A DNA stretch of 12,556 nucleotides, taken from NCBI GenBank assembly GCA_017425765.1, contig JAFOXE010000215.1, forward strand, positions 1 through 12,556, given 5' to 3'. The position numbers were made by a program, and so were the translations under genes. The notes below the pieces were generated by a model. It saw only the letters and a list, made by a program, of their open reading frames with translations. It searched no databases and was not told where the DNA came from. The DNA comes from Paraprevotella sp. (GTDB lineage Bacteria; Bacteroidota; Bacteroidia; Bacteroidales; Bacteroidaceae). This document shows, piece by piece, positions 1,955 through 12,556 of the stretch; the first letter of the stretch is position 1; each line of letters starts with the position of its first letter.

Positions 1955-2827
1955 ATGAAGAACCTATTCCTATATCTATATATAGTCCTCGCCTTTTTGG
2001 TGCAGGCATACATAGGCAATTTCCCGTTGTCTATGATGGTATTCCCGATGAACCTACTTTTGGCTGCCGTATGGATTACCCTTATGGTGTGGCTCTACAC
2101 AAAGATGTCCACAAGTGCATTCACACGTTTTCTATTGTCGCCGGGAACCACGATACATAGTCTTGTTATCGTAATCGTAATGGCCTTGATTATTGGTTTG
2201 TTTCCTCAGCTATCCCCATCCGAGGCTGCGAGTCAAGACACACTCCTTGCTCGTTTGGGTTGCTACGATTTCGTCACCTCATGGCCTTTTCTTGCTGCAC
2301 TATTCTTGTTGCAGACAGTGTTAGGGATGTGCATCCTACGTGGTTGGCGCCATAAAAAACACTTCCGCCCACGCTTTTTCTTTGTTCATGTAGGTTTATG
2401 GCTGGCCCTCTTCGGAGGCTTTTGGGGTGCTGCCGACACTGAAATTTTGCGCATGCCCGTTTATCGCGAAGCTCCCAGCAATGAGGCTTTTCACGAAGAT
2501 GGTCGCCCCACTTTCCTTGCTTATAACCTACAGCTACACGATTTCCAAGTAGACTATTATGCCAATGGCATACCCTCACGATATGCTGCGACACTTTGTG
2601 CTCCTGCCGACACCTTTACTCTTGAAGTCAATCATCCCTACTCCATCCTATGGGGAGAAGATATCTACCTTACGAGCTACGACGTGCAAAAAGGAGCCCA
2701 ATCTCCCTACTGCATAGTACAAATTGTACGCGAGCCTTGGAAGTACGTCACTGCCGCGGGCATCCTACTCTTGTTAATGGGTGCTGTGCTCATCTTCTTT
2801 CGTAAACCTAAACATTCACGCACATGA
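1955..2827 (+). CDS. resB: ResB-like cytochrome c biogenesis protein (compact form)
   Basis: Probable ResB/CcsB partner of CcsA in System II cytochrome c maturation, which brings heme and reduced apocytochrome together on the outer face of the cytoplasmic membrane. The 290 residues give about six hydrophobic segments (roughly 5-22, 29-48, 66-84, 108-129, 141-159, 262-283), with a soluble stretch of about 100 residues between the last two. His68 and His145 lie in or beside membrane segments and are candidate heme ligands. The closing EPWKYVTAAG plus hydrophobic helix is typical of ResB C-termini. It is much shorter than classical ResB proteins (about 400-550 residues). It overlaps ccsA by 4 bp (ATGA), implying translational coupling. 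The assignment rests on topology, the C-terminal pattern and the ccsA neighbour rather than on a catalytic motif. Confidence 0.8.
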   Translation: MKNLFLYLYIVLAFLVQAYIGNFPLSMMVFPMNLLLAAVWITLMVWLYTKMSTSAFTRFLLSPGTTIHSLVIVIVMALIIGLFPQLSPSEAASQDTLLARLGCYDFVTSWPFLAALFLLQTVLGMCILRGWRHKKHFRPRFFFVHVGLWLALFGGFWGAADTEILRMPVYREAPSNEAFHEDGRPTFLAYNLQLHDFQVDYYANGIPSRYAATLCAPADTFTLEVNHPYSILWGEDIYLTSYDVQKGAQSPYCIVQIVREPWKYVTAAGILLLLMGAVLIFFRKPKHSRT

Positions 2828-3609
2828 TTACGTGGAACTCCTTTCTATATTGGGCAATACCTACCTTCGTTCTATCCGTAGTGGGTTCCGTACTCTCGCT
2901 ACGGAGCGAAAAGCGCAGCTATGCCGCTATGTTTGCCACCCTCACTGCAGTGTGTGTGCTTTCCGGTTTTGTAGCCGGTTTATGGACATCCTTAGAACGT
3001 CCCCCTTTGCGCACCATGGGCGAAACCCGCCTATGGTATTCTCTTTTCATGCTCATCGCGGGGTTATTCACCTACATACGTTGGGGGTTCCGATGGATAC
3101 TTTCTTTCTCTACCCTCGTTAGCACGGTGTTCCTTGTCATTAACATTCTACGCCCTGACATTCACGACCGCTCGCTTATGCCGGCCCTACAAAGTCCGTG
3201 GTTTATTCCCCACGTCACCGTCTACATTTTTTCCTATTCAGTTCTGGGTTGTGCTTTTTTATTAGGTCTTTACAATTTGCACTACAAGAAAAAAGATTTA
3301 CTTCCCGTAGCCGACAATCTTGTACACATAGGTCTTTGTTTCCTTACACTCGGTATGCTGTTCGGTTCTCTATGGGCCAAAGAGGCTTGGGGACGTTATT
3401 GGAGTTGGGACCCCAAGGAAACCTGGGCCGTTATCACATGGGTGGGCTATCTTTTGTATATTCATCTACGTCTGATGAGGCCTAAGCTTCGCATTTGGGC
3501 ATGCATACTTTTGATTCTTTCTTTCGTAGGTCTTCAAATCTGTTGGTACGGCATCAACTATCTGCCGTCTGCCCAAAACAGTGTACATGCCTATACTCGA
3601 GGTTCGTAG
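2824..3609 (+). CDS. ccsA: Cytochrome c biogenesis protein CcsA (heme handling, System II)
   Basis: Polytopic membrane protein of the CcsA/CcmC family, which presents heme for covalent attachment to CxxCH motifs of c-type apocytochromes. The 261 residues contain many hydrophobic helices and the diagnostic tryptophan-rich WWD segment WGRYWSWDPKETW at residues 189-201. Histidines flank it at 130 (IPHVTVY, before) and 255 (NSVHAY, after), where the family's external heme ligands are expected; His168 and His214 may be the membrane-embedded ones. The start codon overlaps the resB stop (ATGA), so the two form one operon. The tri-heme peroxidase downstream is a plausible substrate. No nrfHA nitrite reductase genes lie alongside, unlike the arrangement recalled from some Bacteroides genomes. 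Confidence 0.95.
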   Translation: MITWNSFLYWAIPTFVLSVVGSVLSLRSEKRSYAAMFATLTAVCVLSGFVAGLWTSLERPPLRTMGETRLWYSLFMLIAGLFTYIRWGFRWILSFSTLVSTVFLVINILRPDIHDRSLMPALQSPWFIPHVTVYIFSYSVLGCAFLLGLYNLHYKKKDLLPVADNLVHIGLCFLTLGMLFGSLWAKEAWGRYWSWDPKETWAVITWVGYLLYIHLRLMRPKLRIWACILLILSFVGLQICWYGINYLPSAQNSVHAYTRGS

Positions 3610-3650
3610 CGACTCCTCATTTCCACGGCAGTCTAAAAATCTTGTCTTGG

Positions 3651-3684
3651 TTTCATGACCTTGTGTAAGTTTTTTATACTTTTG
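3651..3684 (+). promoter_or_regulatory. Probable promoter of the cytochrome c peroxidase gene
   Basis: TACTTTTG at 3677-3684 is a full match to the TAnnTTTG -7 box. The best upstream candidate, TTTC at 3651-3654, is 22 bp away and only a partial -33 match. The predicted transcript start falls near 3690, giving a leader of about 40 nt before the ATG at 3733. Confidence 0.7.
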
Positions 3685-3732
3685 CATACAAACTATTATT
3701 TTCTATACGCATCACATCTAAATTCAGACTAT

Positions 3733-5118
3733 ATGAAAAAGAAACTTTCTTATTTGTGGATTATACTGCTCATCGTTGCTGTGGCAGCCACATTTACGTA
3801 TCGAATGATGAACTGTCCTCCGGCCGAAGACCTTCCGCTTAACGCTCAAGTCATAAAGATCTTCAAGGATGGAGGATGCATAAGCTGTCATTCCGAGAAT
3901 CCCGAACTTCCTTTCTATGCCGAATTCCCTATGGCCGGCGACATTGTGAAAGCGGATGCCGACTCCGGATACCGTGCTTTCGACATGGCTCCAATGTTGT
4001 TGGCATTGGAACAAGGCCAACTTCCACACCCCGTTGACATGGCCAAAGTGGGCAAGGTTATGGAAGACCAACGCATGCCCATGGCCAAATACTATTTGGT
4101 ACATTGGGGCAGTTCTACCACCGATGCCAAACGCGACATTATTTTGAATTGGCTTACAGAATACCGAAGCACTTACTACGGTGATGGCCTTTCGGGCGAA
4201 CGAGCCGGTGAACCCATACGTCCCATTGCCACTTCCTATTCCGTAAATGAGGATAAGGCAAATTTGGGCTTTATGTTGTATCACGACAAGCGTCTTTCTG
4301 TAGACAACACCGTATCCTGCGCTTCATGCCACGACCTCAGCACCGGTGGTGTCGACAACAAACAATACTCTGAAGGCGTAGAAGGACAAAAAGGTGGTGT
4401 GAACGCCCCTACCGTATACAATGCCGTATACAACTTCGTTCAGTTCTGGGACGGACGCGCCAAAACATTAGCCGATCAGGCTGCAGGACCTCCGCTCAAC
4501 CCCGTGGAAATGGCCTCAACCTCTTTCGACGAAATCATCGCTAAATTGCAACAAGATAAAGAATTTGTAGAAGCTTTCTGTGCACAATACCCAAAAGGCT
4601 TGACACAAGCCACCATTACAGACGCAATTGAACAATTCGAGAAAACGCTCATCACACCGAATGCCCGTTTCGATGCCTACCTCAAGGGCAACAACGAGGC
4701 CATTACAGCACAAGAGCTTCAAGGTTATGAATGGTTCAAGAAGTATGATTGCGCCACATGTCACATTGGTCCTAATGCCGGTGGCATGTCATACGAACTT
4801 ATGGGTTTGCGTAAACATTACTTTGCCGACCGTGGAATGGAATTGACCAACGAAGATAACGGCCGATACAAGGAAACACAACAAGAAAGAGACCGCCATC
4901 GTTTCAAGGTGCCAGGCTTGCGCAACGTGGCTCTAACTTGGCCATACTACCACGACGGAACTCGCACCACATTGACCGAAGCCGTACGCGATATGGGTAC
5001 CTACCAAAGCGGCGTTACGCTTTCCAACGAGGAGGTAGAGGGCATTACCGCCTTCTTGCGTAGCCTTACCGGCGAACATAAAGGTTCTTTACTCACAAAT
5101 CCTAAAGGGGAACAATAA
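3733..5118 (+). CDS. Tri-heme membrane-anchored cytochrome c peroxidase
   Basis: Reduces hydrogen peroxide to water with electrons from the respiratory chain, on the periplasmic side. The 461-residue protein starts with a lysine-rich N-terminus and one hydrophobic segment (about residues 5-24), a signal anchor. Three CxxCH heme sites are visible: CISCH (49-53), CASCH (196-200) and CATCH (340-344). The last two belong to the di-heme CCP/MauG fold; the FWDGRAKTLADQ stretch and VPGLRNVALTWPYYHDG near the C-terminus are characteristic. The first heme lies in an additional N-terminal domain of about 150 residues resembling bacterial heme-binding domains. ATG 3733 is preferred over an in-frame ATG at 3655, which lies upstream of the -7 box and would precede the signal segment with 26 extra residues. 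Its maturation would need System II, encoded just upstream. Confidence 0.93.
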   Translation: MKKKLSYLWIILLIVAVAATFTYRMMNCPPAEDLPLNAQVIKIFKDGGCISCHSENPELPFYAEFPMAGDIVKADADSGYRAFDMAPMLLALEQGQLPHPVDMAKVGKVMEDQRMPMAKYYLVHWGSSTTDAKRDIILNWLTEYRSTYYGDGLSGERAGEPIRPIATSYSVNEDKANLGFMLYHDKRLSVDNTVSCASCHDLSTGGVDNKQYSEGVEGQKGGVNAPTVYNAVYNFVQFWDGRAKTLADQAAGPPLNPVEMASTSFDEIIAKLQQDKEFVEAFCAQYPKGLTQATITDAIEQFEKTLITPNARFDAYLKGNNEAITAQELQGYEWFKKYDCATCHIGPNAGGMSYELMGLRKHYFADRGMELTNEDNGRYKETQQERDRHRFKVPGLRNVALTWPYYHDGTRTTLTEAVRDMGTYQSGVTLSNEEVEGITAFLRSLTGEHKGSLLTNPKGEQ

Positions 5119-5203: not shown

Positions 5204-6031
5204 TTATATATATATCTGTTCGCCACACGAAAGATAGGCTATTTGTTCGCCAAGTTCATCCCGCAACCGTTCGTAGGCCTCCATTCCCGTGCAGTGCAGT
5301 GTGTAATACATACACTTTCGCTGTTTCAACTCATCAACGAACCGCTGCATAAAAGTTTCTTCCTCTTCCTTGCTCAGCCCCATCTTCATTAAATGAAATC
5401 CGGCCACCACATGTGTCAATCGTTTCCCGGTCAATTCTTCGGCACGTTGCATGATGTTAATTATACCGGCATGAGCACAACCGGCTATCAGCACCAAATT
5501 GTTTCCTTCGCTTATCAAGACGTTTTGTTCGTCTGTGAAAGGGTCTGCCAAACCATGTTCATCAGCAAAGAGTAATTTGTTTCCGGGCGGACAACACACC
5601 GCCCCCTTTACATTCGAGAACAACCTCACCCCCTTACACACTTCTGTTTCGCCTTCACAAAACCGCCAATCATCGGTCATCAATTCGTCTTTCTGCCACT
5701 GTTTGTCAAGACCTATATAGCTCAACCCTTTGGGTCGCAACGAGTAATGAGGAGCAAAAGCCTGACGGTGCAAATAAATGGGTAAAGCAGGGCGTAACGC
5801 CGTAAGCACACGCAGTCCGCCACCGTGATCATAGTGTCCGTGCGAGAGTATAGCAAAACTCACCTCCGAAAGATCCACGTCCATCCGTTCGGCATTACGT
5901 ACAAACAAATCACTCTGTCCCACGTCGAATAGAAACGCCTCCCCATCGTTGAGCAAAATGTGTAACGACAATCCATGCTCCACAGGAAGACCAAGCGACG
6001 AGGTGTTCTCCACTAATACAGACAGTTTCAT
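5204..6031 (-). CDS. Metallo-beta-lactamase-fold protein, COG1237 (dihydropterin phosphate synthase-like)
   Basis: Metal-dependent hydrolase-fold protein of 275 residues. The HxHxDH metal motif is at 64-69 (SHGHYDHGGG), followed by GCAHAG (184-189, His187), AGFH (210-213) and HCTG (246-249). This order is typical of COG1237, whose archaeal member makes 7,8-dihydropterin-6-methyl-ribofuranosylaminobenzene phosphate in methanopterin synthesis. Bacteria without methanopterin also carry such proteins and their substrate is unknown, so no reaction is claimed. The start at 6031 (MKLSVLVEN) is preferred: the frame stays open to 6145, but those 38 residues look non-coding and the -7 box at 6054-6061 lies inside them. 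No signal peptide, so probably cytoplasmic. Divergent from the hydrolase gene at 6144. Confidence 0.87.
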   Translation of the reverse strand: MKLSVLVENTSSLGLPVEHGLSLHILLNDGEAFLFDVGQSDLFVRNAERMDVDLSEVSFAILSHGHYDHGGGLRVLTALRPALPIYLHRQAFAPHYSLRPKGLSYIGLDKQWQKDELMTDDWRFCEGETEVCKGVRLFSNVKGAVCCPPGNKLLFADEHGLADPFTDEQNVLISEGNNLVLIAGCAHAGIINIMQRAEELTGKRLTHVVAGFHLMKMGLSKEEEETFMQRFVDELKQRKCMYYTLHCTGMEAYERLRDELGEQIAYLSCGEQIYI

Positions 6032-6053
6032 ACCACGGTTTGTTGATTTACTG

Positions 6054-6061
6054 CAAATATA
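6054..6061 (-). promoter_or_regulatory. -7 box of the metallo-hydrolase gene
   Basis: On the minus strand this reads TATATTTG, a full TAnnTTTG match, 22 bp before the chosen start codon at 6031. No good -33 box is visible at the expected distance. Confidence 0.65.
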
Positions 6062-6092
6062 ACATTGTTTCTCGAGATTATCACCGAAGGCG

Positions 6093-6124
6093 ATTGTCCA
6101 TGTCCCAGAAAAAACGTAATATTG
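6093..6124 (+). promoter_or_regulatory. Possible promoter of the alpha/beta hydrolase gene
   Basis: ATTG at 6093-6096, a 20-bp spacer, then TAATATTG at 6117-6124, each one base off the Bacteroidota consensus. It is 19 bp before the ATG at 6144 and would fire away from the divergent promoter at 6054-6061. Confidence 0.5.
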
Positions 6125-6143
6125 TGAAATAAAACAAGCACAC

Positions 6144-6758
6144 ATGAAACTAATCTACTTTCACGGTTTTGGTTCGTCCGGTGCCAGTGGCACGGTAGAA
6201 ACCCTTCGCAAATGCCTTCCTTCAGCCGAAGTCATCGCCCCCGACATTCCGATCGACCCTGTTGAAGCCCTTCCTTATTTGCAGGAACTATGCGAAAAAG
6301 AACAGCCTGACCTTGTAGTGGGTACTAGTATGGGGGGCATGTATGCACAGCAGATGCGCGGTTTTACTCGCATTTGCATCAATCCGGCTTTCAATATGTC
6401 CACCATGAGCAAATCGCTAAAGACCGGCACGTACAAGTTCTTTAACGGGCGAAAAGACCACCAAAAGGAATTTAAAATCACGAAGGAAATTATCCAACAT
6501 CATAATCAAATGGAGCGTGCCCAGTTCAAAAACATCACAGAAACCGACCGCGCCAATTGCTACGGACTATTCGGCATCAACGACACACAAGTAAACTGCC
6601 ACGATTTGTTCAAGAAGCACTACCCCAATGCCATCCGATTCGAGGGTGAGCACCGACTTACCGACAAGGTCATTCACAAAGTTCTGCTACCCCTTATCAA
6701 AGAACTATGGGGCAATGAGAAGTACGAAGAAGCTCGCAAAGAACCACTCCCGTATTGA
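6144..6758 (+). CDS. YqiA/UPF0227-like alpha/beta-hydrolase (putative esterase)
   Basis: Small cytoplasmic serine hydrolase of 204 residues, the usual length for the YqiA family, whose E. coli member is an esterase on short acyl esters; the natural substrate is unknown. It opens with IYFHGFGSS (oxyanion-hole region, residues 4-12). The nucleophile elbow GTSMGG has Ser62, and the other catalytic candidates are Asp147 (GINDTQ) and His170 (GEHRLTD), in the right order and spacing. No signal peptide is present. It stands alone between the divergent metallo-hydrolase gene and the tRNA. Two structured elements follow the stop codon: a pair of identical palindromes and a separate hairpin. Confidence 0.87.
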   Translation: MKLIYFHGFGSSGASGTVETLRKCLPSAEVIAPDIPIDPVEALPYLQELCEKEQPDLVVGTSMGGMYAQQMRGFTRICINPAFNMSTMSKSLKTGTYKFFNGRKDHQKEFKITKEIIQHHNQMERAQFKNITETDRANCYGLFGINDTQVNCHDLFKKHYPNAIRFEGEHRLTDKVIHKVLLPLIKELWGNEKYEEARKEPLPY

Positions 6759-7037: not shown

Positions 7038-7122
7038 GGAGAGATGGTAGAGTGGTCGATTACAGCAGTCTTGAAAACTGCCGTGCTGAGAGGCACCGGG
7101 GGTTCGAATCCCTCTCTCTCCG
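7038..7122 (+). tRNA. tRNA-Ser, anticodon UGA
   Basis: Folds as a class II tRNA. Acceptor GGAGAGA (7038-7044) pairs with TCTCTCC (7115-7121), with discriminator G at 7122. The anticodon stem GCAGT/ACTGC encloses loop CTTGAAA, with anticodon TGA at 7072-7074, reading UCA. A long variable arm (around 7083-7097) is typical of serine tRNAs. The T arm is GGGGG-TTCGAAT-CCCTC. The 3' CCA is not encoded (CTA follows), so it must be added after transcription. Confidence 0.96.
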
Positions 7123-7124
7123 CT

Positions 7125-8945: not shown

Positions 8946-9920
8946 ATGAATTTTCTTAAAGCACTCTTCGGTGGCGTGGAAGAAAGCCCCGAGGTTCAAG
9001 AACAAAAAAAAGCAGAGAAGAACTTTAACATACTGAAGTATGACGGCATTCGTGCCTTACAAACCAGACAAACAGACTACGCCGTAAAATGCTTTACAGA
9101 GGCTCTTAAATTGAAAGCCGATGCCGAGGCGGAACTGTATTTAACACAGGCTTATATCCGCAACGGACAATTGGATGCGGCATACGAAACATTGACGCAT
9201 ATTTTGGAACAAGATGCCGAAAACATAGAAATTTTAATGCTGAAAGCACAAATTACATATAACCTTACAAAGTACGATGAGGTGGTGAACATTTGTCAAC
9301 AAGTTCTTCAATTAGACGATACAAACTCCGCGGCCTACTTTCAAAAAGCAAGAGCAGAATATGCCCGCAAGGATGTATTCAATGCCATAGCCTCATGCAC
9401 AAAGGCTATTGCCAATGCGCCGGAGTTGGAACAGGCCTACCTGCTCCGCGCCGAGATTTTGGAGAGTATGAATCAGTTTGCCGATGCTGAAGCCGACATT
9501 GATTACCTTCTGCAACATTTTGAACCCACCGAAGAGGGATTGATGCAAAAAGGAGTTCTGCGCATGAAACAAGGAGCATACGACAAGGCCATCACACTCT
9601 TCAAACAAGTAACAGAGCTAAATCCGTTCCATGAAAAGGCATATATCTGCAGTTCGGAAGCAACCACACTGCAAGGAAACGCTGAACAAGCGCTGCAAGG
9701 ATTGGACGAGGCTCTACAAATGATGCCGGAGAACGCCCAACTATATAAGGAACGTGGGCGTGTGAAAGTTTTGCTGAACGACAAAGCGGGAGCAATGGAG
9801 GATGTAAGACGCTCTTTGGAACTGAATCCAGAAGAGGCAAAACACCTTGAAGGACTGTTCACCAACACAGAAAAAGAGATGGAGGCACGCTACAAAAGTC
9901 AAAACCCTTACGGCTTCTAA
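8946..9920 (+). CDS. Tetratricopeptide repeat protein
   Basis: A 324-residue protein made almost wholly of TPR helices, a protein-protein interaction scaffold. About eight repeats with a 34-residue period are visible from residue 30 to about 294, for example AYLLRAEILESMNQFADAEA (164-183) and KERGRVKVLLNDKAGAMEDV (268-287). The N-terminus (MNFLKALFGG) is short and amphipathic rather than a signal peptide, and residues 12-26 are highly charged, so a cytoplasmic location is likely. The C-terminus ends in a charged tail and NPYGF. No catalytic domain is present. It is transcribed on its own, divergent from the peptidase, and its partner is unknown. The stop codon is about 68 bp before the pheA promoter, with no convincing terminator between, so some read-through into the leader is possible. 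Confidence 0.9.
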   Translation: MNFLKALFGGVEESPEVQEQKKAEKNFNILKYDGIRALQTRQTDYAVKCFTEALKLKADAEAELYLTQAYIRNGQLDAAYETLTHILEQDAENIEILMLKAQITYNLTKYDEVVNICQQVLQLDDTNSAAYFQKARAEYARKDVFNAIASCTKAIANAPELEQAYLLRAEILESMNQFADAEADIDYLLQHFEPTEEGLMQKGVLRMKQGAYDKAITLFKQVTELNPFHEKAYICSSEATTLQGNAEQALQGLDEALQMMPENAQLYKERGRVKVLLNDKAGAMEDVRRSLELNPEEAKHLEGLFTNTEKEMEARYKSQNPYGF

Positions 9921-9987
9921 ACAAAAGACTACCTAATGTGACATCTTTACGAACAGGAACAAAATTTATTTAAAAAAGCACCTTTTT

Positions 9988-10020
9988 CTTGCACACGAAA
10001 ATAAAAAATCTCTATATTTG
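9988..10020 (+). promoter_or_regulatory. Promoter of the leader-pheA operon
   Basis: CTTG at 9988-9991, a 21-bp spacer and TATATTTG at 10013-10020 (exact -7 box). The start of transcription would fall near 10024, about 20 nt before the leader peptide start. Confidence 0.8.
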
Positions 10021-10045
10021 CAGAGAACATCAAAAAAACATTGTG

Positions 10046-10132
10046 ATGAAAACCTTGTTTAACGCATTTTTCTACTTCTTCTTTTACTTCTACTTTATTC
10101 AAAGAGCAGAAGCGGGAAGTCGTATATGTTGA
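10046..10132 (+). CDS. Phe/Tyr-rich leader peptide of the pheA operon
   Basis: A 28-codon reading frame (ATG 10046, TGA 10130) whose product starts MKTLFNA and then runs FFYFFFYFYF, ten aromatic residues in a row (10067-10096). In total there are eight Phe (four TTT, four TTC) and three Tyr (all TAC). The remainder is IQRAEAGSRIC. Such composition is expected of an attenuation leader, where a ribosome short of charged tRNA-Phe or tRNA-Tyr stalls on the run. It lies between a promoter and an intrinsic terminator, upstream of prephenate dehydratase, the gene that commits prephenate to Phe. Codons 22-24 coincide with a segment complementary to the terminator's left arm. There is no clear Shine-Dalgarno sequence. 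Too short for standard gene callers; called from composition, position and RNA structure together. Confidence 0.88.
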   Translation: MKTLFNAFFYFFFYFYFIQRAEAGSRIC

Positions 10133-10177
10133 ACAAGACAATAAAGAACAATCAATAGCACATAAAAATCCCGCTTC
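10109..10177 (+). promoter_or_regulatory. Antiterminator pairing of the pheA attenuator
   Basis: GAAGCGGGA (10109-10117, inside the leader peptide frame) is an exact 9-bp complement of TCCCGCTTC (10169-10177), the core of the terminator's left arm, so the two structures exclude each other. The upstream segment begins 12 nt after the aromatic codon run. A ribosome stalled on the run would leave it free, while one reaching the TGA at 10130 would cover at least part of it. A weaker rival hairpin (10088-10096 with 10101-10111) could occupy the segment when no ribosome is present. Confidence 0.82.
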
Positions 10178-10198
10178 GAAAGAGGTGGGATTTTTTTT
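10164..10198 (+). terminator. Attenuator terminator ahead of pheA
   Basis: Left arm AAAATCCCGCTTC (10165-10177) pairs with GAGGTGGGATTTT (10182-10194): 13 bp including two G-T wobbles, closed by a GAAA tetraloop, with a run of eight T at 10191-10198. It lies 31 bp before the pheA start and 32 bp after the leader stop codon. Termination here would give a transcript of roughly 175 nt. Confidence 0.93.
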
Positions 10199-10214
10199 GC
10201 AACTAAATAAAAAA

Positions 10215-10219
10215 AGGAG
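10215..10219 (+). promoter_or_regulatory. Shine-Dalgarno sequence of pheA
   Basis: AGGAG at 10215-10219 with a 9-nt spacer to ATG 10229. It is notable because other starts in the window lack such a sequence. It confirms the start choice and lies just beyond the attenuator, so it is not sequestered by the terminator stem. Confidence 0.7.
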
Positions 10220-10228
10220 AAGAACATA

Positions 10229-11071
10229 ATGAAACGAATTGCAATTCAAGGCAGCAAAGGATCGTTCCACGACGTGGCAGCACACCGATATTTCGAAGGA
10301 GAAGAGATCGAGTTAATCTTCTGTTCAACCTTTGAACAAGTCTTTGCCGAGATAGCAAACGATAGCTCAGTCATCGGCATGGTTGCCATTGAAAACACTA
10401 TTGCCGGAAGTTTGTTGCGTAATTATGAGTTGCTACGAGAGAGCAACGCCACCATCATTGGCGAACATAAGCTTAGAATCTCACATAGTTTCCTTTGTCT
10501 TCCGGAAGACAATTGGGACAGCATTACCGAAGTAAACTCACACCCTGTGGCGCTGATGCAATGTCGCGATTTCCTAAATCAACACTCCAATTACAAGGTG
10601 GTTGAAGGTACAGACACCGCAGGATCGGCCGAATTCATCTATCGAAACAAAATGCGTGGACATGCTGCCATCTGCGCCAAAGAGGTGGCGGATTTATACG
10701 GGCTGAAAGTTCTTGAAGAGGGCATTGAAACGAACAAACATAACTTCACCAGATTCCTTGTTTTTTGCAATCCCAAGCGCGCCAACCTTTTGCGCGACAT
10801 ACGTCAAACCAATAAGGCAAGCCTCGTGTTCACACTACCTCACGAAGAAGGCTCGCTCTCGCAAGTGCTCTCCATATTATCGTTTTATAGACTAAACCTA
10901 ACAAAAATACAATCGCTTCCCATCATCGGACAAGAATGGCAATATATGTTCTACATCGACTTGGGATTTGAAGACTATACACGGTATACACAAAGCATAG
11001 ATGCAATAACACCTCTAACAAAAGAACTCAAAATATTAGGAGAATACCAAGATGGAAGACAAAGTATATAA
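10229..11071 (+). CDS. pheA: Prephenate dehydratase
   Basis: Converts prephenate to phenylpyruvate, the committed step to phenylalanine, in the cytoplasm. The 280 residues match the monofunctional enzyme: a periplasmic-binding-like catalytic domain (1 to about 180) and a C-terminal ACT regulatory domain (about 197-272). Catalytic-domain marks are ENTIAGS (55-61), SHPVALMQC (104-112) and the signature TRF at 174-176 within HNFTRFLVF. The ACT domain shows GSLSQVL (208-214) and NLTKIQSLP (223-231), where canonical Phe-sensing enzymes have ESRP. No chorismate mutase domain is attached. The gene ends 20 bp inside the aminotransferase gene, suggesting coupled translation. Expression is probably controlled by the attenuator upstream. 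Confidence 0.96.
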   Translation: MKRIAIQGSKGSFHDVAAHRYFEGEEIELIFCSTFEQVFAEIANDSSVIGMVAIENTIAGSLLRNYELLRESNATIIGEHKLRISHSFLCLPEDNWDSITEVNSHPVALMQCRDFLNQHSNYKVVEGTDTAGSAEFIYRNKMRGHAAICAKEVADLYGLKVLEEGIETNKHNFTRFLVFCNPKRANLLRDIRQTNKASLVFTLPHEEGSLSQVLSILSFYRLNLTKIQSLPIIGQEWQYMFYIDLGFEDYTRYTQSIDAITPLTKELKILGEYQDGRQSI

Positions 11072-12239
11072 CCCACACATACAACCTGCGGAGCGCTTGG
11101 CAACCATAACAGAATACTATTTTTCACGCAAGTTGAAGGAGGTGGCAAGCATGAATGCCGAAGGAATGGACATCATAAGCTTGGCCATCGGCAGCCCCGA
11201 CATGCCGCCTTCTAAACAAACAATAGAAACTCTTTGCGAGCATGCTCACAAGGACAACTCACATGGTTATCAACCCACTTCCGGCATACCGGAACTCCGT
11301 CAGGCAATGGCTGAATTTTACAAGAAGTGGTACGATGTTAGCCTTGACCCGAATTCGGAAATTCAACCGCTTATCGGGTCGAAAGAAGGGATTCTTCATG
11401 TTACTCTAGCCTTCGTAAATCCTGGCGATCGTGTTCTCGTTCCCAATCCGGGATATCCAACATACACGTCGCTCAATAAAATCTTAGGCAGCGAAATTGT
11501 ACCTTACGAACTCAGCCCGAGTACAGGTTGGCAACCTGACTTCAATGCCTTAGAGCAAATGGACCTAAGCGGCGTGAAACTCATGTGGACAAACTACCCC
11601 AACATGCCCACCGGTGCACGTGCACTGCGCAGCACATACGAGAAGCTGGTAGACTTCGCTTTACGCCATAACATTGTAGTTGTAAACGATAATCCCTATA
11701 GCCTCATCTTGAGTCACGAACATCTTAGTATTCTACAAATACCACGGGCAAAAGAGTGCTGCATCGAGTTCAATTCGATGAGTAAAAGTCATAACATGCC
11801 CGGATGGCGTGTAGGAATGTTGGCAACCAATGCAGAATTCGTTAAATGGATATTGAAGGTAAAGTCAAACATTGACTCGGGCACGTTCCGTCCCCTTCAG
11901 CTTGCTGCCGCCAAGGCATACCGCAACGATAATGCTTGGCATGAAGAAGCCAATTATGCCACTTATGCTCGTCGTCGCACCCTGGCCGAACAAATCATGA
12001 CAGCCTTAAACTGCACCTTCGACCCCAAGCAAGTAGGAATGTTTCTATGGGGACGCATTCCTGAAACATACCCAAACGTGGAAGAACTAACAGAACGTGT
12101 ACTTCACGAAGCCCGCGTGTTCATCACCCCGGGATTCATCTTTGGCTCGGCCGGAGAACGCTATATCCGCATTTCGCTCTGTGCTAATGAAGAGAAGTTA
12201 AGCGAAGCACTTACACGTGTAAAAAGAGTTTTCGGGTAA
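11052..12239 (+). CDS. PLP-dependent class I/II aminotransferase (aromatic pathway)
   Basis: Fold-type I aminotransferase of 395 residues. Visible are NPGYPTY (132-138), the cofactor aspartate Asp213 and Tyr216 in VNDNPYS, the Schiff-base Lys245 in SMSKSHNMPGWRVG, and the substrate carboxylate-binding Arg373 in YIRISL. The usual NNPTG motif reads NMPTG (184-188). Lying between pheA and DAHP synthase and overlapping pheA by 20 bp, it most likely transaminates phenylpyruvate and 4-hydroxyphenylpyruvate to Phe and Tyr, or prephenate to arogenate. That role is inferred from context; by sequence alone it could also act on aspartate or LL-diaminopimelate. The ATG at 11052 has no clear ribosome-binding site, in keeping with coupling to pheA translation. 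Confidence 0.9.
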   Translation: MEDKVYNPHIQPAERLATITEYYFSRKLKEVASMNAEGMDIISLAIGSPDMPPSKQTIETLCEHAHKDNSHGYQPTSGIPELRQAMAEFYKKWYDVSLDPNSEIQPLIGSKEGILHVTLAFVNPGDRVLVPNPGYPTYTSLNKILGSEIVPYELSPSTGWQPDFNALEQMDLSGVKLMWTNYPNMPTGARALRSTYEKLVDFALRHNIVVVNDNPYSLILSHEHLSILQIPRAKECCIEFNSMSKSHNMPGWRVGMLATNAEFVKWILKVKSNIDSGTFRPLQLAAAKAYRNDNAWHEEANYATYARRRTLAEQIMTALNCTFDPKQVGMFLWGRIPETYPNVEELTERVLHEARVFITPGFIFGSAGERYIRISLCANEEKLSEALTRVKRVFG

Positions 12240-12302: not shown

Positions 12303-12556
12303 ATGGAACTAGAATTATCACCATTGAACCTACAAGGAATAGAAACTCAGCGCCCCTTGATTATTGCCGGCCCTTGCAGCGCAGAAACCGAAGAACAAGT
12401 AATGACAACAGCCATGCAGTTGGCTTCTAAGGGATGCAAAATATTCCGCGCCGGAATTTGGAAGCCACGAACCAAACCCGGTGGTTTTGAAGGCATCGGG
12501 GAAGAGGGGTTGAAGTGGATGACAAAGGTAAAGGAAACCACAAAGATGCTCACCAC
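12303..12556 (+). CDS. DAHP synthase, N-terminal part (possibly fused to chorismate mutase; partial)
   Basis: First enzyme of the shikimate pathway, joining phosphoenolpyruvate and erythrose 4-phosphate. Only about 84 codons are in the window; the frame is open to the last base. The start MELELSPLNLQG leads to IIAGPCSAET (about residues 19-28), the type I DAHP synthase phosphoenolpyruvate-site motif, then FRAGIWKPRTKPGGFEG (about 48-64). From memory, the Bacteroidales homologue carries a C-terminal AroQ chorismate mutase domain, but this cannot be seen here. It lies 63 bp after the aminotransferase stop, same strand, with no terminator or -7 box between, so it shares the pheA operon. Placing it under the Phe/Tyr attenuator would couple pathway entry to aromatic amino-acid supply. 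Confidence 0.9.
   Translation, partial: MELELSPLNLQGIETQRPLIIAGPCSAETEEQVMTTAMQLASKGCKIFRAGIWKPRTKPGGFEGIGEEGLKWMTKVKETTKMLT

Follow-up and report, generated by a model that had tools for sequence, protein, structure and literature searches.

Analysis of a 12,556-nt stretch of Paraprevotella sp. DNA (contig JAFOXE010000215.1 of assembly GCA_017425765.1), hereafter the window, revealed that positions 10046–10198 very probably form a ribosome-mediated transcription attenuator of an operon comprising pheA, an aminotransferase gene and a DAHP synthase gene, based on the sequence itself, on comparison with relatives and on modelled RNA folding. The region opens with a short frame rich in codons for the amino acids of the operon, whose translation is predicted from the sequence. 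Its peptide reads MKTLFNAFFYFFFYFYFIQRAEAGSRIC, from the ATG at 10046–10048 to the TGA at 10130–10132, and a script check of the letters showed that a preliminary description of this DNA, made without database searches, had the 28 codons and the uninterrupted run of ten Phe/Tyr codons right to the base. Codons 8–17 (10067–10096) read TTT TTC TAC TTC TTC TTT TAC TTC TAC TTT. Shortly after these sensor codons lies the left arm of an antiterminator (segment 2, GAAGCGGGA, 10109–10117), which would exclude the terminator by pairing with 10169–10177 (TCCCGCTTC) and is backed by covariation; the exact 9-bp complement claimed beforehand for these two segments was found with nine of nine Watson–Crick pairs. 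Between the leader frame and the first gene, folding placed a hairpin with T-tract at 10164–10198, for which termination is predicted. Its minimum-energy fold has 14 pairs, joining 10164–10177 and 10182–10195 around a GAAA loop, and contains the 13 pairs described earlier for a terminator with this loop and eight T. Table 1 lists all elements.

Table 1. Predicted elements of the leader region and genes of the operon (positions in the window)
Feature	Positions	Strand	Basis
Leader peptide frame, 28 codons and TGA	10046..10132	+	Sequence; ATG-started aromatic leader in 176/189 class regions
Sensor, uninterrupted run of ten Phe/Tyr codons; predicted second role as segment 1, paired with segment 2 in naked RNA	10067..10096	+	Sequence, folding
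Segment 2 (GAAGCGGGA), antiterminator left arm	10109..10117	+	Exact complement of 10169–10177; covariation
Segment 3, terminator left arm; 10169–10177 doubles as antiterminator right arm	10164..10177	+	Fold, covariation
Terminator loop GAAA	10178..10181	+	Sequence, fold
Segment 4, terminator right arm	10182..10195	+	Fold, covariation
Terminator T-tract, eight T, the first five drawn paired in the fold	10191..10198	+	Sequence, fold
Predicted promoter: CTTG, –33-like (9988–9991), and TATATTTG, –7-like (10013–10020)	9988..10020	+	Sequence
pheA, prephenate dehydratase, predicted regulated gene	10229..11071	+	Pfam PF00800, 181.6 bits
Class I/II aminotransferase, second gene, 20-nt overlap with pheA	11052..12239	+	Pfam PF00155, 201.7 bits
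DAHP synthase, 5' part, third gene, runs off the window	12303..12554	+	Pfam PF00793, 53.7 bits

In the proposed mechanism, a shortage of charged tRNA-Phe or tRNA-Tyr would stall the ribosome within 10067–10096 and leave segment 2 free, which could then catch segment 3 as it emerges (2:3 pairing), so that the terminator helix of segments 3 and 4 (3:4) would be prevented and RNA polymerase would read into pheA. With both tRNAs charged, the ribosome would reach the stop codon at 10130, where it would hide part of segment 2, or the leader codons it has left would pair with segment 2 (1:2 pairing). Segment 3 would then pair with segment 4, and transcription would terminate near 10198; if it begins near 10025, the resulting RNA would have about 175 nt, in agreement with the preliminary description. 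Since the operon is predicted to supply both Phe and Tyr, a single switch would respond to the two, and the attenuator would offer such an operon a means of sensing what it makes. That stalling would free 10109–10117 and block the terminator had been proposed before, and class-wide conservation, covariation and computed folding lend support to it.

For comparison, pheA relatives were sought in 101 near genomes and in 392 genomes from across the phylum, of which 68 and 337, respectively, gave a match, and were also taken from 80 named loci. After leaving out a region at a contig end (L063), a second match in one genome (G066), and a named locus at a contig end (L094), 146 regions remained, to which 85 regions from the 337 matching phylum genomes were added, picked for genus spread among the matches listed. 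Dropping rows identical over the last 250 nt reduced these 231 upstream regions to 216 distinct ones, 189 from class Bacteroidia (one of them, L017, empty) and 27 from outside the class. Using a rule that demanded an ATG start and at least six F/Y in 12 codons, we detected a leader in 176 of the 189 class regions, while dinucleotide shuffles gave a mean of 3.2 and a maximum of 7 in 20 rounds; over all distinct regions, 182 of 216 had a leader in forward orientation and 16 on the reverse complements. An ATG leader was lacking in 13 class regions; inspection of these by eye suggested GTG-started aromatic leaders in L032 and L206, two regions cut by contig ends (L017 and L146), and coding sequence directly upstream in L067, L068, L190, and L205, while no leader was seen in L097, L099, L119, L128, and L141. 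Phocaeicola vulgatus ATCC 8482 (L118) also carries a leader of this kind. Judged by these sequences, the layout is conserved across the sampled class Bacteroidia and is no local accident. Aromatic frames ahead of pheA were also seen outside the class (L154, L155, L166, L173, L217, and L218; L217 without a detected terminator), for which horizontal transfer and an older origin are two candidate readings.

Downstream of the codon run, a terminator was detected by our own rule in 172 of the 182 leaders (6.5 on average when shuffled, over six rounds) and in 167 of the 176 class leaders; the nine remaining class leaders showed a hairpin by eye, with a T-tract that was short or broken. This bears on a different explanation, namely that the leader frame and its hairpins act on translation or RNA stability, either by exposing or hiding the pheA start or by reinitiation. 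In PMC4833913, short leader frames near the start codon are proposed to boost translation by reinitiation, with a peak at 11–14 bp in Bacteroidetes, but the leader stop codon of the window is a far greater 96 nt away from pheA, and the interval contains a hairpin with T behind it, as it contains a terminator in nearly all class leaders. We therefore regard an effect on translation or stability as very improbable.

The two alternative stems were examined for covariation. When the pairing of segment 2 with the terminator left arm was ranked against 100 dinucleotide shuffles, 158 of 172 leaders (155 of 167 within the class) had rank 5 or better, and a median of 12.5% of foreign segment 2s paired as well as a leader's own. 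Among 56 representatives with distinct left-arm cores, own pairing had a mean of –13.2 kcal/mol and swapped pairing –8.5 kcal/mol, with none of 5000 permutations as good; at the median, 9% of the segment 2s from other leaders paired equally well. Between lineages the complement differs, reading GAAGCGGGA, GCCGGGACT, ACGGGACT, CGAGGCTTT, TCAGGATT, CCGGAGG, or CGGGGCC, and segment 2, left arm, and right arm change in concert. An alignment made with MAFFT from 76 leaders, all distinct, 75–125 in length and with a complementary run no shorter than 6, a choice that favours intact elements, revealed two-sided changes in 6 of 9 antiterminator pairs and in 7 of 10 terminator pairs; 91.3% of the antiterminator cells and 93.4% of the terminator cells were paired, compared with 31–52% when the stems were slid. 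The number of two-sided pairs was equalled by shuffles in 1/500 (antiterminator) and 6/500 (terminator) cases, and the covariation score in 0/500 for both stems. Thus, the check suggested beforehand, for a conserved aromatic run together with compensatory changes in both stems, turned out positive across class Bacteroidia. In 162 leaders, the median distance from the last aromatic codon to the start of segment 2 was 12 nt. The frame and folding tests were run on those class leaders with a terminator whose complementary run reached at least 5 (158 of 167); in these, segment 2 fell into the three reading frames 73, 29, and 8 times and lay at or after the stop codon in 48. Since segment 2 is kept while its frame varies, conservation there concerns the RNA, not the peptide. 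A second antiterminator helix, TATGT (10125–10129) with ACATA (10160–10164), fits the window and adds only about 1.3 kcal/mol; both motifs occurred together in 8 of 159 leaders versus 1.4 expected, and this helix is not claimed.

As an addition to the anatomy described earlier, we identified a predicted promoter upstream of the leader, whose –7-like element TATATTTG begins 33 nt ahead of the leader ATG and which resembles the Bacteroides consensus TTTG/TAnnTTTG, with CTTG as a candidate –33-like element. Of 174 class leaders with enough sequence (two of the 176 were too short to count), 139 had TAnnTTTG in the 80 nt preceding the leader ATG versus 11.9 expected, mostly at a distance of 30–35 nt. 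This predicted promoter speaks to the suggestion that the hairpin is simply the terminator of the upstream gene for a tetratricopeptide repeat (TPR) protein (8946–9920), with the aromatic frame a product of chance in T-rich sequence. While the TPR gene indeed ends 125 nt ahead of the leader ATG and the interval is A/T-rich, the TAnnTTTG motif lies between the TPR gene and the leader, as it does in the relatives counted above, the frame is kept far beyond the chance expectation of 3.2 regions, and the 2:3 pairing covaries. A chance frame in front of a TPR-gene terminator is thus scarcely credible, the least probable of the explanations considered here.

The codon run itself was compared over the 176 class leaders. 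In its last six codons the first base was T in 161–176 leaders, and in the two codons preceding these in 149 and 130; the second base of the last six was mostly T or A and the third mostly T or C. As seen in the aligned sequences, the codon columns are those of selection for Phe-or-Tyr codons, with the synonymous base free. Both Phe and Tyr were present in 174 of the 176, with medians of 5 F and 4 Y per leader. After the run, almost identical nucleotides are translated as EAGS in the window and as KRE or ERE in most members of its genus.

The behaviour of the switch was modelled by partition-function folding of the RNA up to the terminator loop. For the window, a ribosome stalled in the run gave probabilities of the 2:3 pairing, P(2:3), of 0.99 and 0.98; the value fell to 0.19 for a ribosome that had reached the stop codon and to 0.009 for naked RNA, in which a 5' hairpin forms and leader codons pair with 10109–10117, a feature beyond the anatomy noted previously. 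With a stalled ribosome, P(2:3) exceeded 0.5 in 157 of 158 class leaders (154 with an earlier stall). A ribosome at the leader stop of the window is unlikely to cover 10109–10117 fully; modelling suggests that this segment is instead paired with the leader codons which the ribosome has left behind. The ON state is thus predicted nearly everywhere, while the OFF state is weaker in many relatives and the means of securing it would vary: by occlusion where the stop codon is close, and by the hairpin of the codon run in the window. Leader and segment 2 together folded more stably than their synonymous shuffles, with a mean rank of 0.32 (158 related leaders).

Parallel leaders were found ahead of two other biosynthetic genes, using the best 30 loci each for hisG and ilvD, from 49 and 47 matching genomes among 61 searched. 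Upstream of hisG (L237–L266), 21 of 30 loci had His-rich frames, 18 of them with a terminator, and 13 of those 18 showed segment pairing at rank 5 or better. Upstream of ilvD (L267–L296), Ile/Leu/Val-rich frames were detected in 15 of 30, a terminator in 14, and pairing at rank 5 or better in all 14. As a cross-control, the 216 pheA regions contained a His-rich frame once and Ile/Leu/Val-rich frames ten times, and Phe/Tyr-rich frames were found in 2 of 30 hisG and 0 of 30 ilvD regions. The genome of the window itself carries the His leader MKRTRNHHHLHPNVTTR ahead of hisG (L258), where no terminator was detected by the rule; at its ilvD (L286), the rule detected neither leader nor terminator, and no Ile/Leu/Val leader frames were seen by the rule used at the ilvD loci of its genus.

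These matching residues also help to judge whether a riboswitch, a T-box, or a protein-binding terminator/antiterminator could sense Phe/Tyr directly, the frame being incidental. The exchange of terminator and antiterminator would look identical in that case, but we found no match to a T-box or amino acid riboswitch of Rfam (gathering threshold; E ≤ 10 for 9960–10240), the codon columns resemble coding selection, the hisG and ilvD leader frames carry the residues that fit their genes, and segment 2, at a median of 12 nt past the run, leaves little space for a separate sensor. Direct sensing is thus highly improbable. Extending ribosome-mediated attenuation from this locus, we consider it moderately probable that amino acid biosynthesis is controlled by leader-peptide attenuation throughout class Bacteroidia (Phe and Tyr at pheA, His at hisG, and Ile/Leu/Val at ilvD), with a dual sensor at pheA and a codon run that doubles as protector strand. 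If true, ribosomes would closely trail RNA polymerase in Bacteroidota, and the attenuator would have been present in the class ancestor. To our knowledge, though no search was aimed at this point, close coupling of ribosome and RNA polymerase is not established in the phylum, and a covarying, class-wide example in Bacteroidia, which include many gut bacteria, would be a ready assay for transcription–translation coupling there.

Several points weigh against reading 10046–10198 as an attenuator. All support for it is computed, the sequences of the class are related, so that the counts are not independent events, and the frame, alignment, and switch-folding tests used leaders preselected for a terminator and a complementary run. 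Outside class Bacteroidia, a leader was detected in only 6 of 27 regions. A promoter and terminator scan of the window did not list the hairpin at 10164–10198, likely because its stem rule runs into the T-tract, leaving three T. The own segment 2 was within the best 5% for only 20 of the 56 left-arm types, since many left-arm cores are alike. In the folding computations, a ribosome at the stop codon still left P(2:3) above 0.5 in 56 of 158 class leaders, naked RNA exceeded that value in 107 of 158, and segment 2 overlapped the assumed footprint of the ribosome at the stop codon in 113 of 162 leaders (class and outside). Synonymous shuffling of the run barely altered 1:2 pairing (0.775 observed, 0.753 shuffled) and gave no signal for a direct duplex of segment 2 with the leader (mean rank 0.50). 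Finally, for RNA reaching to 10198, the terminator was the minimum-energy fold at all six ribosome positions tried, so that the switch would have to be decided during transcription, by a co-transcriptional head start of the antiterminator. Classical attenuators need the same head start.

Regarding the genes controlled, the assignment of a pheA–aminotransferase–DAHP synthase operon made beforehand was borne out by Pfam and NCBIfam matches, although the best NCBIfam model for pheA, prephenate dehydratase, scored 190.2 bits and thus under its cut-off of 219. In two relatives (L297 and L299), the order is pheA, aminotransferase, full-length DAHP synthase/chorismate mutase, and prephenate dehydrogenase, while a third (L298) has prephenate dehydrogenase as third and DAHP synthase/chorismate mutase as fourth gene; Pfam PDH_N, DAHP_synth_1, and CM_2 match in these operons, and the window ends before the position of prephenate dehydrogenase. 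With prephenate dehydrogenase present in all three relatives examined, the operon would serve both syntheses, in keeping with a leader that contains Phe and Tyr. Elsewhere in the window, we observed ResB-like and cytochrome c assembly genes followed by a di-haem cytochrome c peroxidase gene (1955–5118), a Metallo-beta-lactamase superfamily protein gene on the reverse strand (5204–6145), divergent from a frame starting at 6144, and a tRNA-Ser gene with anticodon TGA (7038–7123).

A search of Rfam revealed no family at threshold on the leader (gathering threshold for the window; E ≤ 10 for 9960–10240), and a new covariance model would therefore be useful. Annotation would normally miss such a short conserved frame ahead of pheA. 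T-box elements gave no Rfam match in the window at gathering threshold or in 9960–10240 at E ≤ 10. The leader is not a member of Phe_leader (RF01859), with 25.0 bits (E = 0.033) versus a gathering threshold of 55 and a best value of 31.7 bits in 20 loci. Likewise, RF04180 (BTnc231, a Bacteroides small RNA) reached 22.6 bits versus a gathering threshold of 80.4; identity of the leader with BTnc231, which is Northern-validated according to PMC7366714, was considered and dropped, as 20 loci gave no match at E ≤ 0.5.

Leader-peptide attenuators of proteobacterial pheA/pheST, his, and trp operons (e.g., RF01859 Phe_leader and RF00513 Trp_leader) represent the classical mechanism. The preliminary description had likened the layout to proteobacterial phe, his, and trp attenuators, and the plan is indeed the same, though the threshold of the Phe_leader family was not reached: a short frame rich in codons of the product, alternative 2:3 and 3:4 pairings, a terminator with T-tract, and a biosynthetic gene downstream. 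Unlike proteobacterial Phe_leader, the leader presented here counts Phe and Tyr about equally, and unlike the proteobacterial operons, the operon also holds prephenate dehydrogenase in the three relatives mentioned above. The statement that such attenuation is little described in Bacteroidota was fair, yet the field is not empty. In PMC9723704, strong clues for leader-peptide attenuation are reported ahead of amino acid operons of Flavobacterium psychrophilum, together with structured 5' elements preceding the Flavobacteriaceae genes pheA and hisG, for which it gives no Rfam hit; these concern the same gene and the same bacterial class as here. Short frames of B. thetaiotaomicron are described as reminiscent of leader peptides in PMC7366714. 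No paper found by the literature searches described a Bacteroidales pheA leader peptide in its title, the opening of its abstract or the passages seen, with subscription papers (e.g., Lopatovskaya et al. 2010, a comparative study that may include Bacteroidetes) beyond reach. Farther away, the authors of a 2010 survey (PMC2965389) knew of no demonstrated case beyond Proteobacteria and Actinobacteria prior to their own Firmicutes example, and the leader-peptide attenuators of Actinobacteria (PMC1262725) are reported as comparative predictions outside proteobacteria like ours, in another phylum. Altogether, the mechanism is known and not new, and a hint at the level of a family is extended to the sampled class with both stems covarying; added here are the class-wide conservation, the covariation of both stems, and the parallel His and Ile/Leu/Val leaders.
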